The notes beneath the pieces were generated by a model, which was given only the letters and a program-made list of their open reading frames with translations, made no database searches and was not told where the DNA came from. A DNA stretch of 64,000 nucleotides. Origin: an uncultured Tateyamaria sp. GTDB taxonomy: Bacteria > Pseudomonadota > Alphaproteobacteria > Rhodobacterales > Rhodobacteraceae. A program made the translations under genes and the position numbers. Location: contig NZ_CANLVZ010000001.1 of NCBI RefSeq assembly GCF_947494755.1, forward strand, positions 434,001-498,000, written 5' to 3'. Below, piece after piece: positions 819-9,380 of the stretch; position 1 is the stretch's first letter, and every line of letters starts with the position of its first letter.

Positions 819-922
819 AGCTGAGGGGGTCTTGCCAAAGATAGCTGGCGCAGTCGTTCGGACCAAGTTTGAACCCAAGCCGTCGCGCTTAAGTCGCTAC
901 ATGCGGTCACGCAATGAGAAAG

Positions 923-936
923 TGGCGGAGAGACAG
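923..936. repeat. Left attachment core (copy of tRNA-Ser 3' end)
   Basis: TGGCGGAGAGACAG, identical to the last 14 bases (reverse strand) of the tRNA-Ser gene at 9291-9304. The flanks differ on both sides, so this is the short core duplicated on integration. It lies downstream of the truncated sugar dehydrogenase gene and marks the left edge of the island. Confidence 0.8.
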
Positions 937-1348: not shown

Positions 1349-2026
1349 ATGGACGAATTTGAACAACAGCCATTTAGCGATGCAGAGTTTGCAGAAAACC
1401 CAGAACAGCGCTGCCCAGTAGTTCTTTTATTGGATACGTCGTATTCAATGAGCGGCGCGCCGATTGCGCAATTAAATGAAGGACTGGCAACGCTTCGCCA
1501 AGAGTTGATGAATGACCCAATGGCTGCAAAACGGGTCGAATTGGCGATGGTCACCTTTGGACCAGTCGAGATAAAATCCGACTTTGCCACAGTGGATCAT
1601 TTCTACCCTGAAACTCTTGAGGCGAACAACGCGACACCGATGGGCGAAGCAATCGTTACCAGCCTAGACATGTTGCGCCAGCGCAAAGATCGGTACCGTG
1701 AAAATGGGGTGAAATATTACCGCCCTTGGGTCTTCCTGATTACTGACGGTGGACCCACCGACAGTTGGAGTGAAGCGAAAACCCGCGTGCATGAAGGCGA
1801 AGAGAAAAAGGAGTTCATGTTCTATGCTGTTGGCGTTGACCAAGCTGACATGAACGTGTTGTCGCAAATTTCCACACGGCAACCGCTCAAACTCAAGGGA
1901 TTGGCCTTCAAGGAACTTTTTCAATGGCTGTCCAGCTCGCTTAGCGCGGTCTCACAGTCCAACCCCGGTGATGCTATCAACCTTGAGAACCCCACTGCCC
2001 CGGATGGTTGGGCCGTAGCAGGGTAA
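1349..2026 (+). CDS. TerY-like vWA domain protein (first gene of phosphorylation triad)
   Basis: A 225-residue von Willebrand A domain protein. The MIDAS metal site is complete: Asp29-x-Ser31-x-Ser33 (DTSYSMS), Thr96 in NNATPMGEA and Asp133 in [11 protein letters not shown]. This is the TerY type, a small cytosolic vWA protein found with a PP2C phosphatase and a kinase in TerY-P triads. I chose ATG 1349, which has a GGGGTG purine stretch about 7 bases upstream; an in-frame ATG at 1328 lacks a clear ribosome site. The PP2C gene starts 4 bases after its stop. Base composition is visibly more AT-rich than the host genes. Its role is probably a phospho-regulated adaptor or scaffold, which is inference. 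Confidence 0.85.
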
Positions 2027-2030
2027 CGGG

Positions 2031-2777
2031 GTGGCATGGCGTTGGGCGGCAGCGTCCGAAATTGGCACCTCGCACATTCAAAACGACGGCAGACTTGAAG
2101 ATGCCTACGCCGTTTCGTGCATGGCAAATGACTGCATTTTCGCAGTTGTGTCAGATGGTGCGGGCAGCGCGAAATTTGGAGTCCATGGTGCTTGGCTTGT
2201 TTGTCGCACTCTGACGGTGCGTTTCCGCGAGTGGTTGAGGGACAATTCGGAATTACCAAACGACGAATTGTTAGTTGATTGGATTGATGATTTGCGGGAT
2301 CGGATTGCAGCAATCGCAAATCAACGCGAAAGTACACCCCGACAATTTGCGGCGACTTTGGCGGCTGTATTAATAACGCCAGATGAAGTGCTGACTCTGC
2401 ATGTTGGCGATAGCGCCATTGTTGGAAGACGGGGCACCGATTGGGAGGTGCTTTGTTGGCCCGAAAATGGCGAATATGCGTCCACCACCTATTTTGTTAC
2501 TGACGACCCGGAACCGCGCTTGAACATCGCCCGCCAGCCAAGGGAACACGATGCATTTGCATTGTTTTCAGACGGCGTGGGCGATTTGGCGTTGTCACAC
2601 TCAGAACAGGCTGCACATCAAAGGTTCTTTGTGCCGATGATGCGCCCGGTTGACGCAGCGACGGAAGACGGACGCCTGCCCAACCTTTCGTCCAAGCTGA
2701 GGGGCTATCTTGCTGGCGCAGCCGTCTGTGAGCGCACTGACGACGACAAAACGCTTGTCCTCATTTCCGGGGGCTGA
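2031..2777 (+). CDS. PP2C-family serine/threonine phosphatase (second gene of triad)
   Basis: A 248-residue protein of the PP2C_2 type. Metal-binding and signature motifs are present: NDGRLEDAY near residue 18, SDGAGS at 41-46 (Asp42), HVGDSAIVGRRG near 124-135, ALFSDGVGD at 177-185 (Asp181) and a late DDDKTLVLI near 237-245. It should remove phosphate from Ser/Thr in an Mn/Mg-dependent way, and its natural partner is the kinase encoded 2 bases downstream. The start is GTG 2031, four bases after the vWA stop; a weak GGG stretch precedes it. It has no signal peptide or membrane segment. Genes this tightly packed are almost certainly co-transcribed. Confidence 0.87.
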   Translation: MAWRWAAASEIGTSHIQNDGRLEDAYAVSCMANDCIFAVVSDGAGSAKFGVHGAWLVCRTLTVRFREWLRDNSELPNDELLVDWIDDLRDRIAAIANQRESTPRQFAATLAAVLITPDEVLTLHVGDSAIVGRRGTDWEVLCWPENGEYASTTYFVTDDPEPRLNIARQPREHDAFALFSDGVGDLALSHSEQAAHQRFFVPMMRPVDAATEDGRLPNLSSKLRGYLAGAAVCERTDDDKTLVLISGG

Positions 2778-2779
2778 TC

Positions 2780-4987
2780 GTGCAGGAAATCGTTATCGGG
2801 AATAGTCGATTTTCAGTTGCTGAGTTGATTGGCAAGGGCGGCGAAGGTGAGGTCTACGCGATCAAGGGTCGGTCTGGGCAGGCCGTCAAAATCTACAACG
2901 CCGGTTTGCGTTCAAAGCGTGAAGACAAAGTGCGTGCGATGGTTGGCGAAGGCCTTGCCATAAAGACTGACCTTGTGGCCTATCCTGGTGAAATCGTCAC
3001 TGACAACCAGGGCAACTTCCTTGGATTTGTTATGCGACTTGTGTCGGGCTACCGCCCGCTGCACGAGCTTTACAGTCCTAAATCCCGCCAACGCTACTTC
3101 CCGAAAGCCGACTACCGGTTCATTGTCCATACTGCACTGAATGTGGCCCGCGCCGTGGGGAAGGTCCATCAAACAGGCTGTGTCATTGGCGACTTGAACC
3201 ATTCCGGTGTTCTGGTGGCGCAAGACGCGACTGTTGCCCTAATCGACGCTGATAGCTTTCAGTTTCGCTTGAATGGAAAGTCCTATCCCTGCGTCGTCGG
3301 CGTGCCGGATTTTACGCCGCCCGAACTTCACGGAAAAAACCTCGCATCTGTAGAGCGTACGATTGAGCACGACAACTTCGGGCTTGCCGTTGCGATCTTT
3401 CACCTGTTGTTCATGGGCCGTCACCCATATGCGGGGCGTTATAGCGGTCCAGATATTTCCATGGGCGATGCAATAGTACAAAACCGCTTCGCGTTTTCGC
3501 TGACACGCCAGTCCGCTACGCGGACAACACCACCCCCCGGCGCACTGACACTCGATCTATTTCCCGACGCCGCTGTGACTGCGTTTGAACAAGCTTTCGG
3601 ATTGAACGCTGGCGTGCGTCCTAGCGCGTTGGATTGGGTTGGTGCCCTGACGAAGTTGGAAGGCTCACTGAATCACTGTAGCAGGGTCAAGACGCACTAT
3701 TTCCCAAGCAATGCCAAGGGGTGCGTATGGTGCGCACTGACGGCCAATAGCGGCTTTGACATGTTCCCGGACCTGTCAGCCGTCACGCCGAATATTCCAA
3801 CTGATACACGCGGGACAGCACAAGCAATCCGCGAAATACTCGCCTTCCGGTTCCCAACGGTTGCTGACCTGTTGCCGCAGGCACCTGCCCCGCGTGGGGC
3901 AAGTGCCGCTCTCAGTGAGGCCAAGAGTGGCAAGCGCGGGCGTGCTTTCTTGGGTCTGCTCATGATGGGCGGCGCTGTTGCCGGGTTCATCGTCGCTATT
4001 CCCGCATGGTTTGTATGGGTCGGGCTGGCGATTTGGGGGTGGGTTACGTTCTCAGACCGTGAAGTTGAACCCGGCCCCTTCCAGAAAGCCTTCAAGGACG
4101 CAGATGAAAAGGTGCAGCGCGAGTTGGAATCATTCGTTCGCCGGAATGGTCTGACGGAGGTTGTGAAGGTGCGCGGCGATCTGGACGCCACAATCGCCGC
4201 CTACAAAGGGCATGACGAGGCGCTGACGCGCGAGTTGATGATATTGAAATCCAACCGGGAGTCGCGTCAGCGACAGGCCTACCTTGACGGTTTCTCAATC
4301 CGTCGCGCCAACATTTCCGGGATTGGGCCTTCCAAGACAGCGACGCTGATTTCGTTCGGGATCGAAACCGCTGCCGATGTGAGTCGATCATCCGTGCTGA
4401 GAGTACCGGGTTTTGGTGACGTCATGACTGGCAAGCTGGTGGAGTGGCGGCGTAGGCACGAATCCCGGTTCAAGTATGACCGAACAGCCAACGCTCAGGA
4501 CGTCACTGACGAAAGAGCATTGCGTGGGCGTTTCGCGGCTGAGAAACTCAAATTGGAATCCAATATCCGCAATGGGCTGGGAACACTTCGCAATGCTAAG
4601 GCGCGGCTTGATGCGTTGCCAGCAAAAGCACGTAGTGACAGTGCGCTTTTGGTGGCGCTGGGAACCCGTGCACAGGCCGAACAAGACTTGAAGATCCTGG
4701 GGGCTTCCGTTCCGACTTCAACAGTGGCGCTGACAGTGACGCCGCCACCCCAGCCCGTGCGACATTCACCAAGAGCGCCAACGCCCAATACTCCACCGAC
4801 GGCACCACGCGTAGCAAATGCCGGAGGCACACCTGATTGCCCCTACTGCGGAAGGTCCATGGTCCTGCGTAGGGCACGGAGGGGCAAAAACGCCGGGAAT
4901 CAGTTCTGGGGTTGTTCAGGCTATCCACATTGCAAAGGCACCCGAAACCTGGTCGGAAAATCGAGCTACAACCCATCGGCCACTTAG
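2780..4987 (+). CDS. Membrane-anchored Ser/Thr kinase-like protein with HhH and topoisomerase-type zinc ribbon (third gene of triad)
   Basis: 735 residues, GTG start at 2780 after a GGGGG stretch. Order of domains: kinase fold at about 8-290 (glycine loop GKGGEGEVY, Lys37 in AVKIY); about 36 hydrophobic residues at 388-423 that make one or two membrane passes; a charged, probably helical region; a helix-hairpin-helix at about 508-555 (ISGIGPSKTATLI and VPGFGDVM); and a C-terminal Cys4 ribbon at about 686-721 (CPYCGRSM then WGCSGYPHC) like those of topoisomerase I. The catalytic loop reads VIGDLNHSG instead of HRD and the metal loop reads IDADS instead of DFG, as I recall for this kinase subfamily. 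HhH and ribbon suggest nucleic-acid contact. Likely role: phosphorylates the vWA partner or a sensor. Confidence 0.85.
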   Translation: MQEIVIGNSRFSVAELIGKGGEGEVYAIKGRSGQAVKIYNAGLRSKREDKVRAMVGEGLAIKTDLVAYPGEIVTDNQGNFLGFVMRLVSGYRPLHELYSPKSRQRYFPKADYRFIVHTALNVARAVGKVHQTGCVIGDLNHSGVLVAQDATVALIDADSFQFRLNGKSYPCVVGVPDFTPPELHGKNLASVERTIEHDNFGLAVAIFHLLFMGRHPYAGRYSGPDISMGDAIVQNRFAFSLTRQSATRTTPPPGALTLDLFPDAAVTAFEQAFGLNAGVRPSALDWVGALTKLEGSLNHCSRVKTHYFPSNAKGCVWCALTANSGFDMFPDLSAVTPNIPTDTRGTAQAIREILAFRFPTVADLLPQAPAPRGASAALSEAKSGKRGRAFLGLLMMGGAVAGFIVAIPAWFVWVGLAIWGWVTFSDREVEPGPFQKAFKDADEKVQRELESFVRRNGLTEVVKVRGDLDATIAAYKGHDEALTRELMILKSNRESRQRQAYLDGFSIRRANISGIGPSKTATLISFGIETAADVSRSSVLRVPGFGDVMTGKLVEWRRRHESRFKYDRTANAQDVTDERALRGRFAAEKLKLESNIRNGLGTLRNAKARLDALPAKARSDSALLVALGTRAQAEQDLKILGASVPTSTVALTVTPPPQPVRHSPRAPTPNTPPTAPRVANAGGTPDCPYCGRSMVLRRARRGKNAGNQFWGCSGYPHCKGTRNLVGKSSYNPSAT

Positions 4988-5027: not shown

Positions 5028-7040
5028 CTACAACCCCAGCCCTCGCTGCCTTCCGAACGTCCAGTCTATCCCGCCGCCGGACATGCCAACCCCGGACACT
5101 TGCAGCCCGATGCGCCGCTCCAATGTGGTGTTCCACGGCACGAGGCTGAACCCTAAGCCGTCGTCGATCATCGCGAAGCGTCCGCTGGCCAGTTGCGTGC
5201 TGCCGGTGAGTTGGCCTGCAAACTGGCTGGCGGGTGTCACGGGCTTCCATTTTCTCCCTTGTTCCGCAGCCATCGCGCGCCCGACGCGTTCGACCTCACG
5301 CGCCTCGAGGCGCTGGATGAGGTCTCGCGGCGCGCGTATGCGACCATTGCCGAGATCGACTGCATCTCCGCGCGTCACCAGCACGCGCTTGCGTTGGTCC
5401 ATCGCCCGGCCTGCCTCTGCACCGAAGCCCGTTTCTCTGACCGCGCCCCGCCTCTGCGCGGTCAATTCCCTATCGAGCCAGGTCGCGCCATCGTGGGTTA
5501 CTTGCCGGTCCAGACTGATTGGCGAGAGCAGGGTCATACGCGGGCCATGGCCGTGGCGTTTGCGATCATGTGCAAGCCCCTGTCTGGGCAGGTCCGTCGG
5601 CACTTTCCAGTGATCGTCACTTCTCCGCTCGACGATCCCCGCTCGCCGCAGGGCTTCGAGCCGCCGCACATGGGCCGCGACAAATCGGGCCGGATCGGGG
5701 CTGATCTCTTGTTCCCGGGCCATCTCGATGTGCCGCGACGGTTTATAGGTGCCGTCGCTTTTTGTGGCCGCGAGTATGTTCCGGTCAGCCGCTCTTGGCT
5801 CCGTTGGCGGCGGTGTTGCCGACACGATCATGCCGCGTCCGATCCCCTCGCAATGATCGGCACGCAGCTCGATCTGGTGCACGCGGCCATCGGTCCCGTC
5901 GATGACCAGCTGCATCCGGTCGCCAGACCCGTCGCCCGCGAGTTCCTTGGCAAGAACGCGGCCAGCGATCTGCTGCTGCAGTCCGTCTCGATGCATCGTG
6001 AGCTGTGCCGCCCCGCGCTGCGCCGCCAGATCGTTGGAATCCAACGCGCGATACATCGATTTGATGATATCGCCGCGCTCCCCCATCGCACGCAGCGTAG
6101 GTTCCGTGCTGTCGTCCAGATGCCAGACACCCGGCGCGCTCTGTTCAGCAAGACCGAGTTTTTCCAGATACTGCGCCCTGCCGATCAACAGCGCGCGATT
6201 CCGCTTCTTCGTCTCCAGCATGTCCTTGTCCGGTCGCAGATCAGCAAATTCGTTGTTCGCCCTCTGCTCGGCCATCAGCATCCGGTCGAGCCGGGTAAAG
6301 CGCTCGGCGTGCACTTCGCGGCGCAGCTGGTCGGTCACCTCGAGATCGGTCTGGTGTCCAAGTTCCAGTGTCACGATGTCGGTCGCCCGTTCGCGGACCC
6401 CATGCGCGATGTAATCTCCTGCGATGTTCAGAATCTTGCCGTCATCGGTGATCCCCCGGACCAGAATGTGGGCGTGCGGATGCCCGGTGTTGTAGTGATC
6501 GACCGCGACCCAATCGAGCCGAGTTTGAAGATCGGCTTCCATCTGCGCCATGATATCTCGGGTCGTCTGGCGCATGTCGGCAAGCTCGACACCGCCTTCT
6601 GCGGAGACGATGAATCGGAACTGATGGCGGTCCTCACGGCCCCGGTCGAGGAAGTCCCGACCGTCGGCTGTGTCTTGATCCGCCGAATAGACCTGACCCT
6701 TTTCGCCGTCCAGCGTGACACCGTCACGCTCCAGATACCGCAGATGCGCATCGACCGCCTTTGCACTGACAAATGACCGCCCGCGCGACGCACCGCGCTG
6801 CGGATTCAGCTTCACGATCCGCGCTTTCACGGTCACCCGACGGGCGCGGGTTCGGGTCCCGTCAGCGCTTCGGGACCAAGGACTCCGGCCTTTCAACTGC
6901 GCCGCCACCTTGGCACCCCGGCCACGGGCGTTGAACCGTCCGCTTGCCTTCCTCTTCCCGGCCAGCCTGTTCGGGTCACCGCCCGCCCGGCGGATTGCTC
7001 GATGCACGTCGGCCAGGAAGCCTCGTGCCGGGCGCCGCAC
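5028..7040 (-). CDS. Relaxase/mobilization nuclease with DUF3363 C-terminal domain (5' end frameshifted)
   Basis: A 670-residue frame read from GTG 7040. It belongs to the alphaproteobacterial relaxase family with a basic N-terminus (SGRFNARGRGAKVAA), a segment LNPQRGASRG, the metal-binding HPHAH at 187-191 and the family-typical end GGGIDWTFGRQRGLGL. Relaxases nick oriT and lead DNA transfer. The usual beginning of this family (MTRDENDLRIRPG) is present upstream at 7111 but in another frame, so the intact gene would run 7111-5028 and has lost one base near 7053-7075. The catalytic part is intact; function from GTG 7040 is uncertain. It converges on the kinase gene with a 40-base gap. No other conjugation genes are nearby. 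Confidence 0.8.
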   Translation of the reverse strand: MRRPARGFLADVHRAIRRAGGDPNRLAGKRKASGRFNARGRGAKVAAQLKGRSPWSRSADGTRTRARRVTVKARIVKLNPQRGASRGRSFVSAKAVDAHLRYLERDGVTLDGEKGQVYSADQDTADGRDFLDRGREDRHQFRFIVSAEGGVELADMRQTTRDIMAQMEADLQTRLDWVAVDHYNTGHPHAHILVRGITDDGKILNIAGDYIAHGVRERATDIVTLELGHQTDLEVTDQLRREVHAERFTRLDRMLMAEQRANNEFADLRPDKDMLETKKRNRALLIGRAQYLEKLGLAEQSAPGVWHLDDSTEPTLRAMGERGDIIKSMYRALDSNDLAAQRGAAQLTMHRDGLQQQIAGRVLAKELAGDGSGDRMQLVIDGTDGRVHQIELRADHCEGIGRGMIVSATPPPTEPRAADRNILAATKSDGTYKPSRHIEMAREQEISPDPARFVAAHVRRLEALRRAGIVERRSDDHWKVPTDLPRQGLAHDRKRHGHGPRMTLLSPISLDRQVTHDGATWLDRELTAQRRGAVRETGFGAEAGRAMDQRKRVLVTRGDAVDLGNGRIRAPRDLIQRLEAREVERVGRAMAAEQGRKWKPVTPASQFAGQLTGSTQLASGRFAMIDDGLGFSLVPWNTTLERRIGLQVSGVGMSGGGIDWTFGRQRGLGL

Positions 7041-7646: not shown

Positions 7647-7946
7647 ATGACACCTTTGACTGGCCCTTCCCAGCAGCAGCCCCGTCCGTCCCGGACGGTC
7701 GATGCCGCGCGGATCGAGGCGGCGCTCATGAAGGTGTCGAAGCTCGTTGTCCAGGACGCAGCGTTTACACCGATCTTCGAGCGTCTTGAGGCGGAACTGG
7801 CCGCAGCCGTGAAGGAAGAGACGCGGCTCACACAAGTGCAGCGCCGGGCGCATGCCTTGCTGGGTCAGAAGGCGATCCGGGCGACAAGCTCGGCGACATG
7901 TTCCAGTGACGCGCCCTTGCCATACCGCTCACGATCAAGCCGGTGA
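7647..7946 (+). CDS. Small hypothetical protein next to the integrase
   Basis: A 99-residue frame starting MTPLTGPSQQQ. Residues 18-78 look like a genuine helical protein (AARIEAALMKVSKLVVQDAA, then FERLEAELAAAV), with a Pro/Gln-rich start. The last 20 or so residues overlap the integrase 3' end on the other strand and look random. No ribosome-binding site precedes the ATG. I recall similar short helical proteins beside integrases in this order but cannot name a family. It may be a short DNA-binding or accessory protein, or chance. Confidence 0.4.
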   Translation: MTPLTGPSQQQPRPSRTVDAARIEAALMKVSKLVVQDAAFTPIFERLEAELAAAVKEETRLTQVQRRAHALLGQKAIRATSSATCSSDAPLPYRSRSSR

Positions 7947-9148
7947 CCGAAAAGGTCGCGGCGAATGCGATCATCGATCCCGGCGGCGAGCATCCGGTCC
8001 TCGAAGGCATGGCGCAGGGAATACAGCGAGTGGCGCGGGGTCTCGAGCAGGCCGTTGGCCCGGAGGAACTTGTTCACGACCGCGCTCAACGTGGCTCGGT
8101 TGCGGTAGCGGGGAAAGCCCTCGGGGTACTGCTTAAGGGCTTCCAGCGAGACACCGGTCAGCGAGACACCAGTCAGCGGGATCACCCGGCGGGCGTAGTG
8201 GCTCTTCAGCTGCCGTCCCTCGGGTTCGATGGAGATATGCGGCACGTCGCCGTCCAACCGGATCGTCTCCGCCGTCAGCGCAGCACCTTGCGACGGTCGG
8301 TAGCCGGTGTTGATCATGCCCAGGAGTAAGGCGCGCGCCTGACCGTTCAACCCGTCGAGCGCGCCGAGGGCGAGCAGCCGCGTCCTGATCCAGTCTTCAC
8401 TGAACGGCGGGCGCGTCTTCTTCTCGCCCTCCTTGAAAGACAACTCGCCGAGCGGCAGTGCCAAGCCAAGACGCTTCATCGTGTTCACGGTCTTCAACAC
8501 GTCGCCCAGGTGGATCAGGTCCTTGTTAGCGGAGTTCGCAGTGACCTCGCCCGCTTCGATCCGGTCGAGCCAGTGCTGGCGGAAGTCCAGCATGTCATCG
8601 CGGGTGATGTTCGCGATCTCCTTGTCACCGACGACCGCAACGAAATTCTTGATGGCTTTGTTCCGGGGGGCTTCCCAACGGCGCAATTGGTCTTCGCTTT
8701 TGCCGAAGGTCTTCTCACGCGCAAGCGTCCAGTAGAGCTCGAGCGCCTTGGTGACCGTTATGCGGGGTTCGGGGATGGTGCCGAGAAGGGCTGCAGCCTC
8801 GACCCTATCCGGTTGGTTCGCAGGCGCAGGGATGGCCTCAACGCGCTCCAAAACGTCGCCGACCGGAAGTTCCGCCACAGAACTTGCGTCCAGATACCGA
8901 AAGCCGCGAACTCGGGCCAGGTCCCGCGCGGCCTCATAGCGGGCCTCCGCGTCGCGGCTATCCCCAGCCAACCGCGCCTCCCATGCCTCAATCATCTGGC
9001 TCCACGCGCGATCCGCCTTGCTCCTGGCAACCATCTCGGAGTCTGTATGCAGGCTGATCCAGACCGTTTCGCGTAGCTCAACCCCTCCATACCGGCGCGG
9101 AACGCGGCGGCGGAGATGGTAGAGACGGCCTCTCTTTGCAATGCTAAT
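7865..9148 (-). CDS. Tyrosine recombinase (site-specific integrase) of the island
   Basis: The protein is 427 residues if started at ATT 9148, or 389 from ATG 9034. The longer form is favoured. The 38 extra residues (including KRGRLYHLRRRVPRRYGGVE and ISLHTDSE) are the usual N-terminus of Rhodobacterales integrases, no ATG/GTG/TTG occurs in that stretch, and a GGAGG sits 9 bases before the ATT. Catalytic residues in long numbering: Arg284 (NTGYRPSQGAAL), Arg379 in YSLRHAFEDR, His402 in LFGHRLD and Tyr409 (ERYGKG). It should integrate and excise the element at tRNA-Ser. The segment PLTGVSLTGVSL reflects a 15-bp tandem duplication. Confidence 0.88.
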   Translation of the reverse strand: MSIAKRGRLYHLRRRVPRRYGGVELRETVWISLHTDSEMVARSKADRAWSQMIEAWEARLAGDSRDAEARYEAARDLARVRGFRYLDASSVAELPVGDVLERVEAIPAPANQPDRVEAAALLGTIPEPRITVTKALELYWTLAREKTFGKSEDQLRRWEAPRNKAIKNFVAVVGDKEIANITRDDMLDFRQHWLDRIEAGEVTANSANKDLIHLGDVLKTVNTMKRLGLALPLGELSFKEGEKKTRPPFSEDWIRTRLLALGALDGLNGQARALLLGMINTGYRPSQGAALTAETIRLDGDVPHISIEPEGRQLKSHYARRVIPLTGVSLTGVSLEALKQYPEGFPRYRNRATLSAVVNKFLRANGLLETPRHSLYSLRHAFEDRMLAAGIDDRIRRDLFGHRLDRERYGKGASLEHVAELVARIAF

Positions 9149-9157
9149 GACGGAAAA

Positions 9158-9162
9158 CCTCC
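9158..9162 (-). promoter_or_regulatory. Shine-Dalgarno GGAGG that decides the integrase start
   Basis: GGAGG on the minus strand with nine bases to the ATT at 9148-9146. It is the only good ribosome site near the conserved N-terminus. It therefore supports initiation at ATT, or a mutated former ATG. Confidence 0.5.
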
Positions 9163-9167
9163 GCGTT

Positions 9168-9203
9168 TGTGCAGCAAACTGTGTAGCAAAATGTGCAGCA
9201 AAT
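9168..9203. repeat. Three tandem 12-bp arm-type repeats, right end
   Basis: TGTGCAGCAAAC (9168-9179), TGTGTAGCAAAA (9180-9191) and TGTGCAGCAAAT (9192-9203) follow each other without gaps. Two copies of the unit are at 1010-1033. They lie between the integrase gene and the tRNA target, the usual place for integrase arm sites. They overlap the region upstream of the integrase ribosome site, so integrase binding could also control its own gene. Confidence 0.75.
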
Positions 9204-9290
9204 CAAGCGGACCGGGAATCGCCATAAGCGCGAAAACGCCGAAATTCGCACTACTATCAGCGCGTTACGAAACAGCGATCTTGGGGTAAA

Positions 9291-9304
9291 TGGCGGAGAG
9301 ACAG
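9291..9304. repeat. Right attachment core inside tRNA-Ser 3' end
   Basis: TGGCGGAGAGACAG, the CCA end, acceptor strand and first T-arm bases of the tRNA gene. It is identical to 923-936. Because the element carries the same bases, the tRNA stays whole after integration. Confidence 0.8.
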
Positions 9305-9380
9305 GGATTCGAACCCTGGGAACCCGTGAAGGCTCAACGGTTTTCGAGACCGCCCCGTTCGACCACTCCGGCACCTCTCC
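9291..9380 (-). tRNA. tRNA-Ser (anticodon CGA)
   Basis: 90 bases including an encoded CCA end. The 5' acceptor GGAGAGG pairs with the 3' strand before GCCA, and the D-arm is GCCGGAGTGGTCGAACGGGGC. The anticodon loop CTCGAAA gives anticodon CGA (codon UCG). A long variable arm (GAGCCTTCACGGGTTC region) is present, as in class II serine tRNAs, and the T-arm carries GGTTCGAATCC. The gene is read on the minus strand, so its 3' end faces the integrated element, whose insertion site it provides. Confidence 0.93.

Follow-up and report, generated by a model that had tools for sequence, protein, structure and literature searches.

The E. coli kinase YegI is bound to the membrane, autophosphorylates on serine and is dephosphorylated by PphC, according to the available text of PMC13232886. 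The parts of the literature at hand describe YegI, PphC and YegL as a biochemically studied kinase system to which they assign no signal, target or purpose. Among the trios called TerY-P, one, whose lineage was not compared with that of the locus studied here, is reported in the accessible sections of PMC10889362 to give P. aeruginosa protection from some phages, most of the cells remaining alive, and an island of H. pylori holds a TerY-P cluster together with restriction genes, as far as the accessible portion of PMC4978471 goes. Here, we analyzed a stretch of 64,000 nucleotides from an uncultured Tateyamaria sp. (contig NZ_CANLVZ010000001.1, positions 434,001 to 498,000 of the forward strand), hereafter the window. 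Near its left end are three adjacent genes, hereafter the triad, which encode a von Willebrand factor A (vWA) protein, a PP2C phosphatase and a protein kinase. The triad is a mobile relative of YegL-PphC-YegI, a kinship missed by the first-pass annotation, which had been made from the letters alone. We regard both its membership of this family and its mobility as practically certain.

All three proteins align over their full length with those of E. coli K-12, at 57% identity for YegL, 35% for PphC and 34% for YegI (217, 249 and 636 alignment columns, respectively). The genes lie only 4 and 2 bases apart, exactly where the first-pass annotation had placed them (Table 1); an alternative in-frame ATG at 1328 is possible for the vWA gene. 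The motifs that it had pointed out in the three proteins are borne out by Pfam matches to VWA, PP2C_2, Pkinase and Zn_ribbon_Top1 and by the conservation of catalytic residues in relatives. These relatives were gathered by one scan of genome contigs, which confirmed 263 places; the best 80 of these and four named records make up 84 loci, near-copies included (L numbers denote loci or comparison stretches, G numbers genomes). The scan was built on two kinase motifs, and Lys37, Asp138 and the zinc knuckle of the kinase lie outside them. The order vWA-PP2C-kinase on one strand is found in all 81 loci in which the sequence before the kinase gene reaches at least 1.5 kb, three further loci being too short. 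The five residues of the metal-ion-dependent adhesion site (MIDAS) are kept in 75 of 75 distinct vWA relatives, and those of the PP2C metal site in 78 or 79 of 79, the remainder being gaps. In the kinase, Lys37 is kept in 82 of 84 distinct relatives and Asp138 and Asp156 in 83 of 84, again with gaps as the remainder; the conservation of Asp156 and of the glycine loop is partly due to selection by the scan motifs. The trio is not confined to housekeeping loci, though it is core in E. coli.

The element that carries the window triad is integrative and mobilisable and measures about 8.37 kb. Downstream of the triad and on the opposite strand are a relaxase and an integrase, then tRNA-Ser(CGA), the 3' end of which is one copy of the attachment (att) repeat (9288-9304). 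The empty site occurs in a genome of the same genus (G398, L093), where the left flank adjoins the tRNA and the right flank with no island between them. Among nine same-genus stretches checked for it, L093 showed the site in full and L097 in part (the left flank, then tRNA-Ser), while seven had no tRNA in the stretch. In Aliiroseovarius sp. S1339 (L006), a copy of the element that is 97.8% identical over 8,472 bases sits at the same tRNA-Ser; the left flanks of the two loci are without similarity and the right flanks share stretches of later genes at 68-74%. When the element was compared with this copy in 250-base segments, most were 98.4-100% identical and the last 95%. An integrase, a relaxase, att repeats and an empty site, as expected of an integrative mobilisable element at a tRNA, are thus all present, and the existence of the element follows from the att repeats, the empty site in a relative and the copy in another genus. 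The triad is its only recognisable cargo, the two further open reading frames (ORFs) having been judged without a library scan, from changes relative to L006 that are unlike the pattern of a conserved gene. The earlier suggestion that the triad is the cargo of a tRNA island is thereby upheld. The G+C content is 52-55% over the vWA and PP2C genes versus 58-65% in most 1-kb segments from 4.0 to 20 kb. Within the integrase, a block at about 7920-8670 is only 78-90% identical to L006, which we read as an allele exchange. Short TGTGCAGCAAA-type repeats lie just inside both element ends, at 993-1032 and 9154-9202, and are perhaps integrase arm sites.

The spread of the family is sporadic. Of 390 Rhodobacterales genomes, representing 139 genera, 6 (in 6 genera) have the kinase at E 1e-40, as do 7 of 398 Pseudomonadota genomes, the own genome being counted in both; one of the six and two of the seven match by the kinase domain only, and G051 probably represents the L006 genome. 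In a tree of 83 kinases, built by a quick method with SH-aLRT (Shimodaira-Hasegawa-like approximate likelihood ratio test) support only and with long-branch warnings outside the window clade, the window kinase and 24 others form one clade with support 100, whose members, drawn from four phyla, stand at 64-84% identity. This clade mixes Rhodobacterales, Stappiaceae, Thermodesulfobacteriota, Chlorobiota, Verrucomicrobiota, Serratia and Symbiopectobacterium, which implies transfer between phyla; several of its rows are metagenome bins, the Desulforhopalus, Chlorobaculum and Serratia rows not being titled so. Kinase matches also occur in 55 plasmid records at E 1e-10 and in 3 phage records at E 1e-5.

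In one metagenome contig (L022, 1904-6001), two exact 23-base repeats enclose the triad by itself, in a unit of 4,075 bases that holds no integrase and, clear of the triad genes, no ORF of at least 80 residues; the second repeat overlaps the 3' end of a tRNA-Leu by 17 bases. Repeats of 19 and 16 bases surround the triads of L025 and L026, and repeats of at least 16 bases flank the triad in 3 of 61 loci versus 0.17% of 600 mismatched pairs. Out of seven tested relatives with a nearby tRNA, only L022 has an exact repeat of tRNA bases, and around 71 triad loci tRNA genes are not significantly enriched (15 in 555 kb versus 7 in 528 kb, p 0.08; 0.11 without the window). Elsewhere the context is a tRNA-Arg and an integrase (Stappia, L009), a tRNA-Gly and an integrase (Serratia, L023), an integrase (L029), a phage capsid gene (L024), a serine recombinase (L026) or a plasmid RepC gene (L028). 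A rival reading is that the triad regulates the excision, transfer or maintenance of its own element, as might be supposed from its position beside the relaxase and integrase and from a distant triad with an RlxS-like relaxase 140 bases away (L073). We think this quite improbable, since among the 84 loci (many with short flanks) a relaxase match was found only in L006 and L073 and an integrase match only in L006 (a 24% match in L009 was seen in a separate comparison), and since the L022 unit has neither gene inside.

Table 1. Features of the triad and its carrier element (window coordinates).
Feature	Position	Strand	Evidence
Distal att repeat of the element (core 923-936)	920..936		16 of 17 bases repeat 9288-9304; similarity to the L006 copy starts exactly at 920
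vWA protein, YegL type, MIDAS DxSxS..T..D	1349..2026	+	Pfam VWA; 57% to E. coli YegL over 217 residues
PP2C phosphatase, PphC (YegK) type	2031..2777	+	PP2C_2 4e-47; 35% to PphC
Membrane-anchored (predicted) kinase, YegI type, 735 residues	2780..4987	+	
Zinc knuckle C300-H306-C315-C318 after the kinase domain	3677..3733	+	Kept at each position in 82 of 84 distinct relatives, with gaps in the remaining two
Predicted transmembrane hairpin	3944..4042	+	71 of 82 scored kinases have two hydrophobic segments no more than 30 residues apart
(HhH)2 domain (predicted)	4304..4468	+	
C-terminal topoisomerase-type C4 zinc ribbon	4835..4951	+	PF01396 7e-9
RlxS/DUF3363 relaxase (mobility, outside the triad)	5028..7040	-	DUF3363 1e-126; Relaxase 1e-5; RlxS 607.8 bits, below the NCBIfam cut-off of 850
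Tyrosine integrase	7865..9034	-	PHROG integrase 2e-22; Pfam Phage_integrase 23.8 bits, below the cut-off of 27.1
tRNA-Ser(CGA), attachment site, att core 9291-9304	9291..9380	-	ARAGORN, Rfam, direct repeat

The kinase had been described as membrane-anchored and as ending in a helix-hairpin-helix (HhH) and a topoisomerase-type ribbon, modules like those that bind nucleic acid. Both descriptions agree with the hairpin predicted across relatives, with the ribbon match and with a model of the C-terminal 236 residues, which comprises HhH, helices and a small zinc ribbon. The mean net charge, over the 71 kinases with a hairpin, is +3.1 before it, 0.1 in its loop and +0.8 after it. On these predictions, kinase, HhH2 and ribbon would all be cytosolic, with the hairpin tethering the kinase at the inner face of the membrane. 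The ribbon cysteines are present in 59-63 of 84 distinct relatives, and the ribbon model superimposes on the Zf-GRF of NEIL3 with a root-mean-square deviation of 1.8 over 44 columns (Foldseek E 0.09). At a threshold of E 0.001, a Foldseek search with the C-terminal model returned nothing, and the vWA protein has no solved-structure relative at E 0.01.

In canonical kinases the residue at position +5 of the catalytic loop is Asn. At this position the 84 relatives carry Gly (72), Ser (7), Val (2), Asn (2) or a gap (1), so that the GDxNxxG signature is a family trait. Since 81 of the 83 readable distinct relatives have Gly, Ser or Val in place of Asn, and since the title of a cited paper states that YegI lacks conserved motifs, the kinase might be a pseudokinase scaffold, with the PP2C acting on the products of other kinases. 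This is improbable: no readable relative has a substitution at Lys37, Asp138 or Asp156 (for Asp156 partly by selection), and E. coli YegI, with Ser at +5, is reported in the available text of PMC13232886 to autophosphorylate.

We then considered the genes beside the triads. The neighbour scan covered 124 of 220 ORFs (61 loci), and 119 of 317 control ORFs, from 39 of 44 stretches at one fixed place of unrelated contigs. Neighbours that match PADLOC models at E 1e-102 or better include SngC and SngB of Shango (L074), the DISARM-type DrmD (L062), PDC-S06 (L075), a retron III-A reverse transcriptase and phosphoribosyltransferase (L080), an oligonucleotide cyclase (locus not traced) and, in L010, an SbcB-type exonuclease that may be a housekeeping protein. 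These are at least 8 proteins versus 1 in the controls (DpdE), with a Fisher p of 0.02, or 0.04 without L010, the proteins not being independent in that L074 and L080 give two each. The number of PADLOC families matched, 241 versus 23, is inflated by multi-matching proteins, such as one in L062 with 42. Upstream of the triads on two sphingomonad plasmids (L002, L003) are AbiE, SbcD-like, SMC-like and HerA genes (Pfam on L002 only, SMC just under its cut-off), and two genes of L032 read as McrB/McrC, the first matching PADLOC restriction models at 3e-16. An association with defence holds for part of the family and is no rule. A conserved linked effector was not found, neighbour clustering giving no partner common to more than 6 loci; together with the triad being the only recognisable cargo, this agrees with the first-pass annotation, which had noted that no classical effector gene accompanies the triad.

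Other neighbours are of separate interest. Proteins of about 455 residues with similar first residues are encoded upstream of the triads of L010 (3927-5285) and L015 (6863-8230), that of L010 having no Pfam match at E 0.001. On the Sinorhizobium plasmid pRM41A (L166, 4395-10887), the His-Xaa-Ser radical-SAM genes hxsB, hxsC and hxsA directly precede the triad. On a Paenarthrobacter plasmid (L162, 6288-10206), an 813-residue PIN-annotated protein with a related kinase and many Cys pairs is followed by vWA and PP2C genes. The last is a possible effector fused to the kinase and a clue that output modules may be exchangeable.

What, then, does the triad do? With confidence that is about evenly balanced, we propose that it is a self-contained phospho-switch, which most likely benefits its host by defending it from phage or other foreign DNA. 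The anatomy of the proteins and the reports from E. coli and P. aeruginosa suggest a membrane-tethered, nucleic-acid-reading kinase with a resetting phosphatase and a vWA adaptor. The kinase, held at the membrane by its hairpin, would read a nucleic-acid signal through HhH2 and ribbon; single-stranded or incoming DNA is our guess. The PP2C would keep the kinase dephosphorylated and quiet, and reset it, while the vWA protein may act as an adaptor whose metal site links the kinase to a partner or target. Upon the signal, the kinase would autophosphorylate and phosphorylate host or invader proteins, so that growth stops or the invader is blocked. Defence is made plausible by the position of the triad as the only recognisable cargo of a recently moved element, its sporadic spread and cross-phylum clade, the triad-only unit of L022, and the kept gene order and catalytic residues. 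It is likewise made plausible by the strong PADLOC neighbours of L074, L080, L062 and L075, the reported chemistry of YegI and PphC, the P. aeruginosa TerY-P and the nucleic-acid-type folds of the kinase C terminus.

Against this, many other triads lie among ordinary genes, and E. coli yegI, present in 5360 of 5426 genomes, is core. This core chromosomal status, the K-12 position of the yeg locus between alkA/yegD and mdtA and the repair-like folds of HhH and ribbon would rather suit a general switch for envelope or DNA-damage stress, a beneficial cargo that is not anti-phage. Such a role carries a lesser, though real, likelihood in our judgement, for the triad is very sporadic in the Rhodobacterales and Pseudomonadota samples, is mobile across phyla and has defence genes beside some of its copies. 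Returning to defence, a bolder version can be put forward tentatively. The triad may belong to a further TerY-P-like defence lineage that is invisible to the databases and is the mobile form of E. coli YegI, a phylum-crossing cassette at times without its own recombinase (a 4.1-kb unit between tRNA-derived repeats). Its kinase would guard the inner membrane and read single-stranded or entering DNA through HhH2 and a NEIL3/topoisomerase-type ribbon, and its output module would be exchangeable, as in the PIN fusion of L162. Since mobile units in several phyla have near relatives of the triad as their one recognisable cargo, in some cases next to known defence genes, the orphan E. coli kinase becomes a candidate for defence.

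The first-pass annotation had named the triad TerY-P. The three enzyme classes and their order support this name; the PADLOC TerY profile and close sequence kinship do not. The vWA protein matches no family of the PADLOC library up to E 10, TerY (PDLC02224) included, and this model has no match at E 1e-10 in the window's own genome, so that the expected similarity to TerY-P profiles fails. For the PP2C the sole match is PDC-M21C, at 0.004, and for the kinase domain there are PD-T4-6 kinase models alone, at best 1e-8; E. coli YegL itself reaches the TerY model at E 0.032 only. At E 1e-10, PDLC02224 matches in 2 of 299 Pseudomonadota genomes (L109, L110), both loci having the order vWA-PP2C-kinase. 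Against these two sequences, the best BLAST match of the window triad is that of the vWA protein at E 0.02 (E. coli YegL reaches 0.003), and hhalign gives a probability of 70% for vWA (E 4e-5), 5% for PP2C (E 0.008) and 17% for the kinase (E 0.0015). Superfamily kinship is evident and close kinship is not, and by its sequences the triad falls outside the PADLOC TerY family, the label fitting the layout only. That the triad is the TerY-P defence system of PADLOC and Gao itself, as the shared classes and order and the weak vWA profile link might suggest, is very improbable, being contradicted at the profile level by the missing TerY matches, the distant BLAST match and the low PP2C and kinase probabilities. 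Membership was accordingly rejected. In L109 (7633-10648), HerA-like and SIR2-like genes, by our own reading, lie directly upstream of the true PADLOC-TerY triad; a HerA gene likewise precedes the YegI-type triad of the Sphingomonas locus L002.

Set beside the described systems, the window triad shares with PADLOC TerY-P the gene order, a MIDAS-type vWA and the kinase motifs; the protein families differ, and the TerY-P kinase has Asn at +5 and another C terminus. The Gao TerY-P kinase is said to carry an oligonucleotide/oligosaccharide-binding (OB) fold, and an OB-fold or zinc ribbon at this position may bind nucleic acid, according to the available text of PMC11090510. The C-terminal model of the window kinase comprises no such fold. 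The CoCoNuT-associated TerY-P, as described in that same portion of PMC11090510, adjoins nucleic-acid defence and has a kinase followed by a zinc ribbon, a layout that the window kinase, in which a zinc knuckle is present, resembles by description. Unlike CoCoNuT, the element has no recognised CnuB/C/H/E-like gene. TerY-P-like triads thus fall into separate protein families, of which PADLOC sees only part, and no link between YegI and TerY was found in the literature searched.

Type VI secretion also brings a membrane kinase, a PP2C and a vWA domain together, in PpkA and PppA. The vWA domain of PpkA is in the same chain as the kinase, whereas that of the window is a separate protein and the window kinase carries HhH. 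In Pseudomonas L039, L041 and L042, a TssM/IcmF-type gene (about 1203-1207 residues) and a 440-residue gene precede the triad, only the L039 copy having been scanned. YegL-PphC-YegI differs from the window triad in being core and chromosomal, in the yegJ gene that K-12 has between pphC and yegI, and in a YegI without the C-terminal ribbon. It resembles the triad in all three proteins, homologous over their full length and encoded in the same order, and in the zinc knuckle and the predicted transmembrane hairpin and HhH of its kinase.

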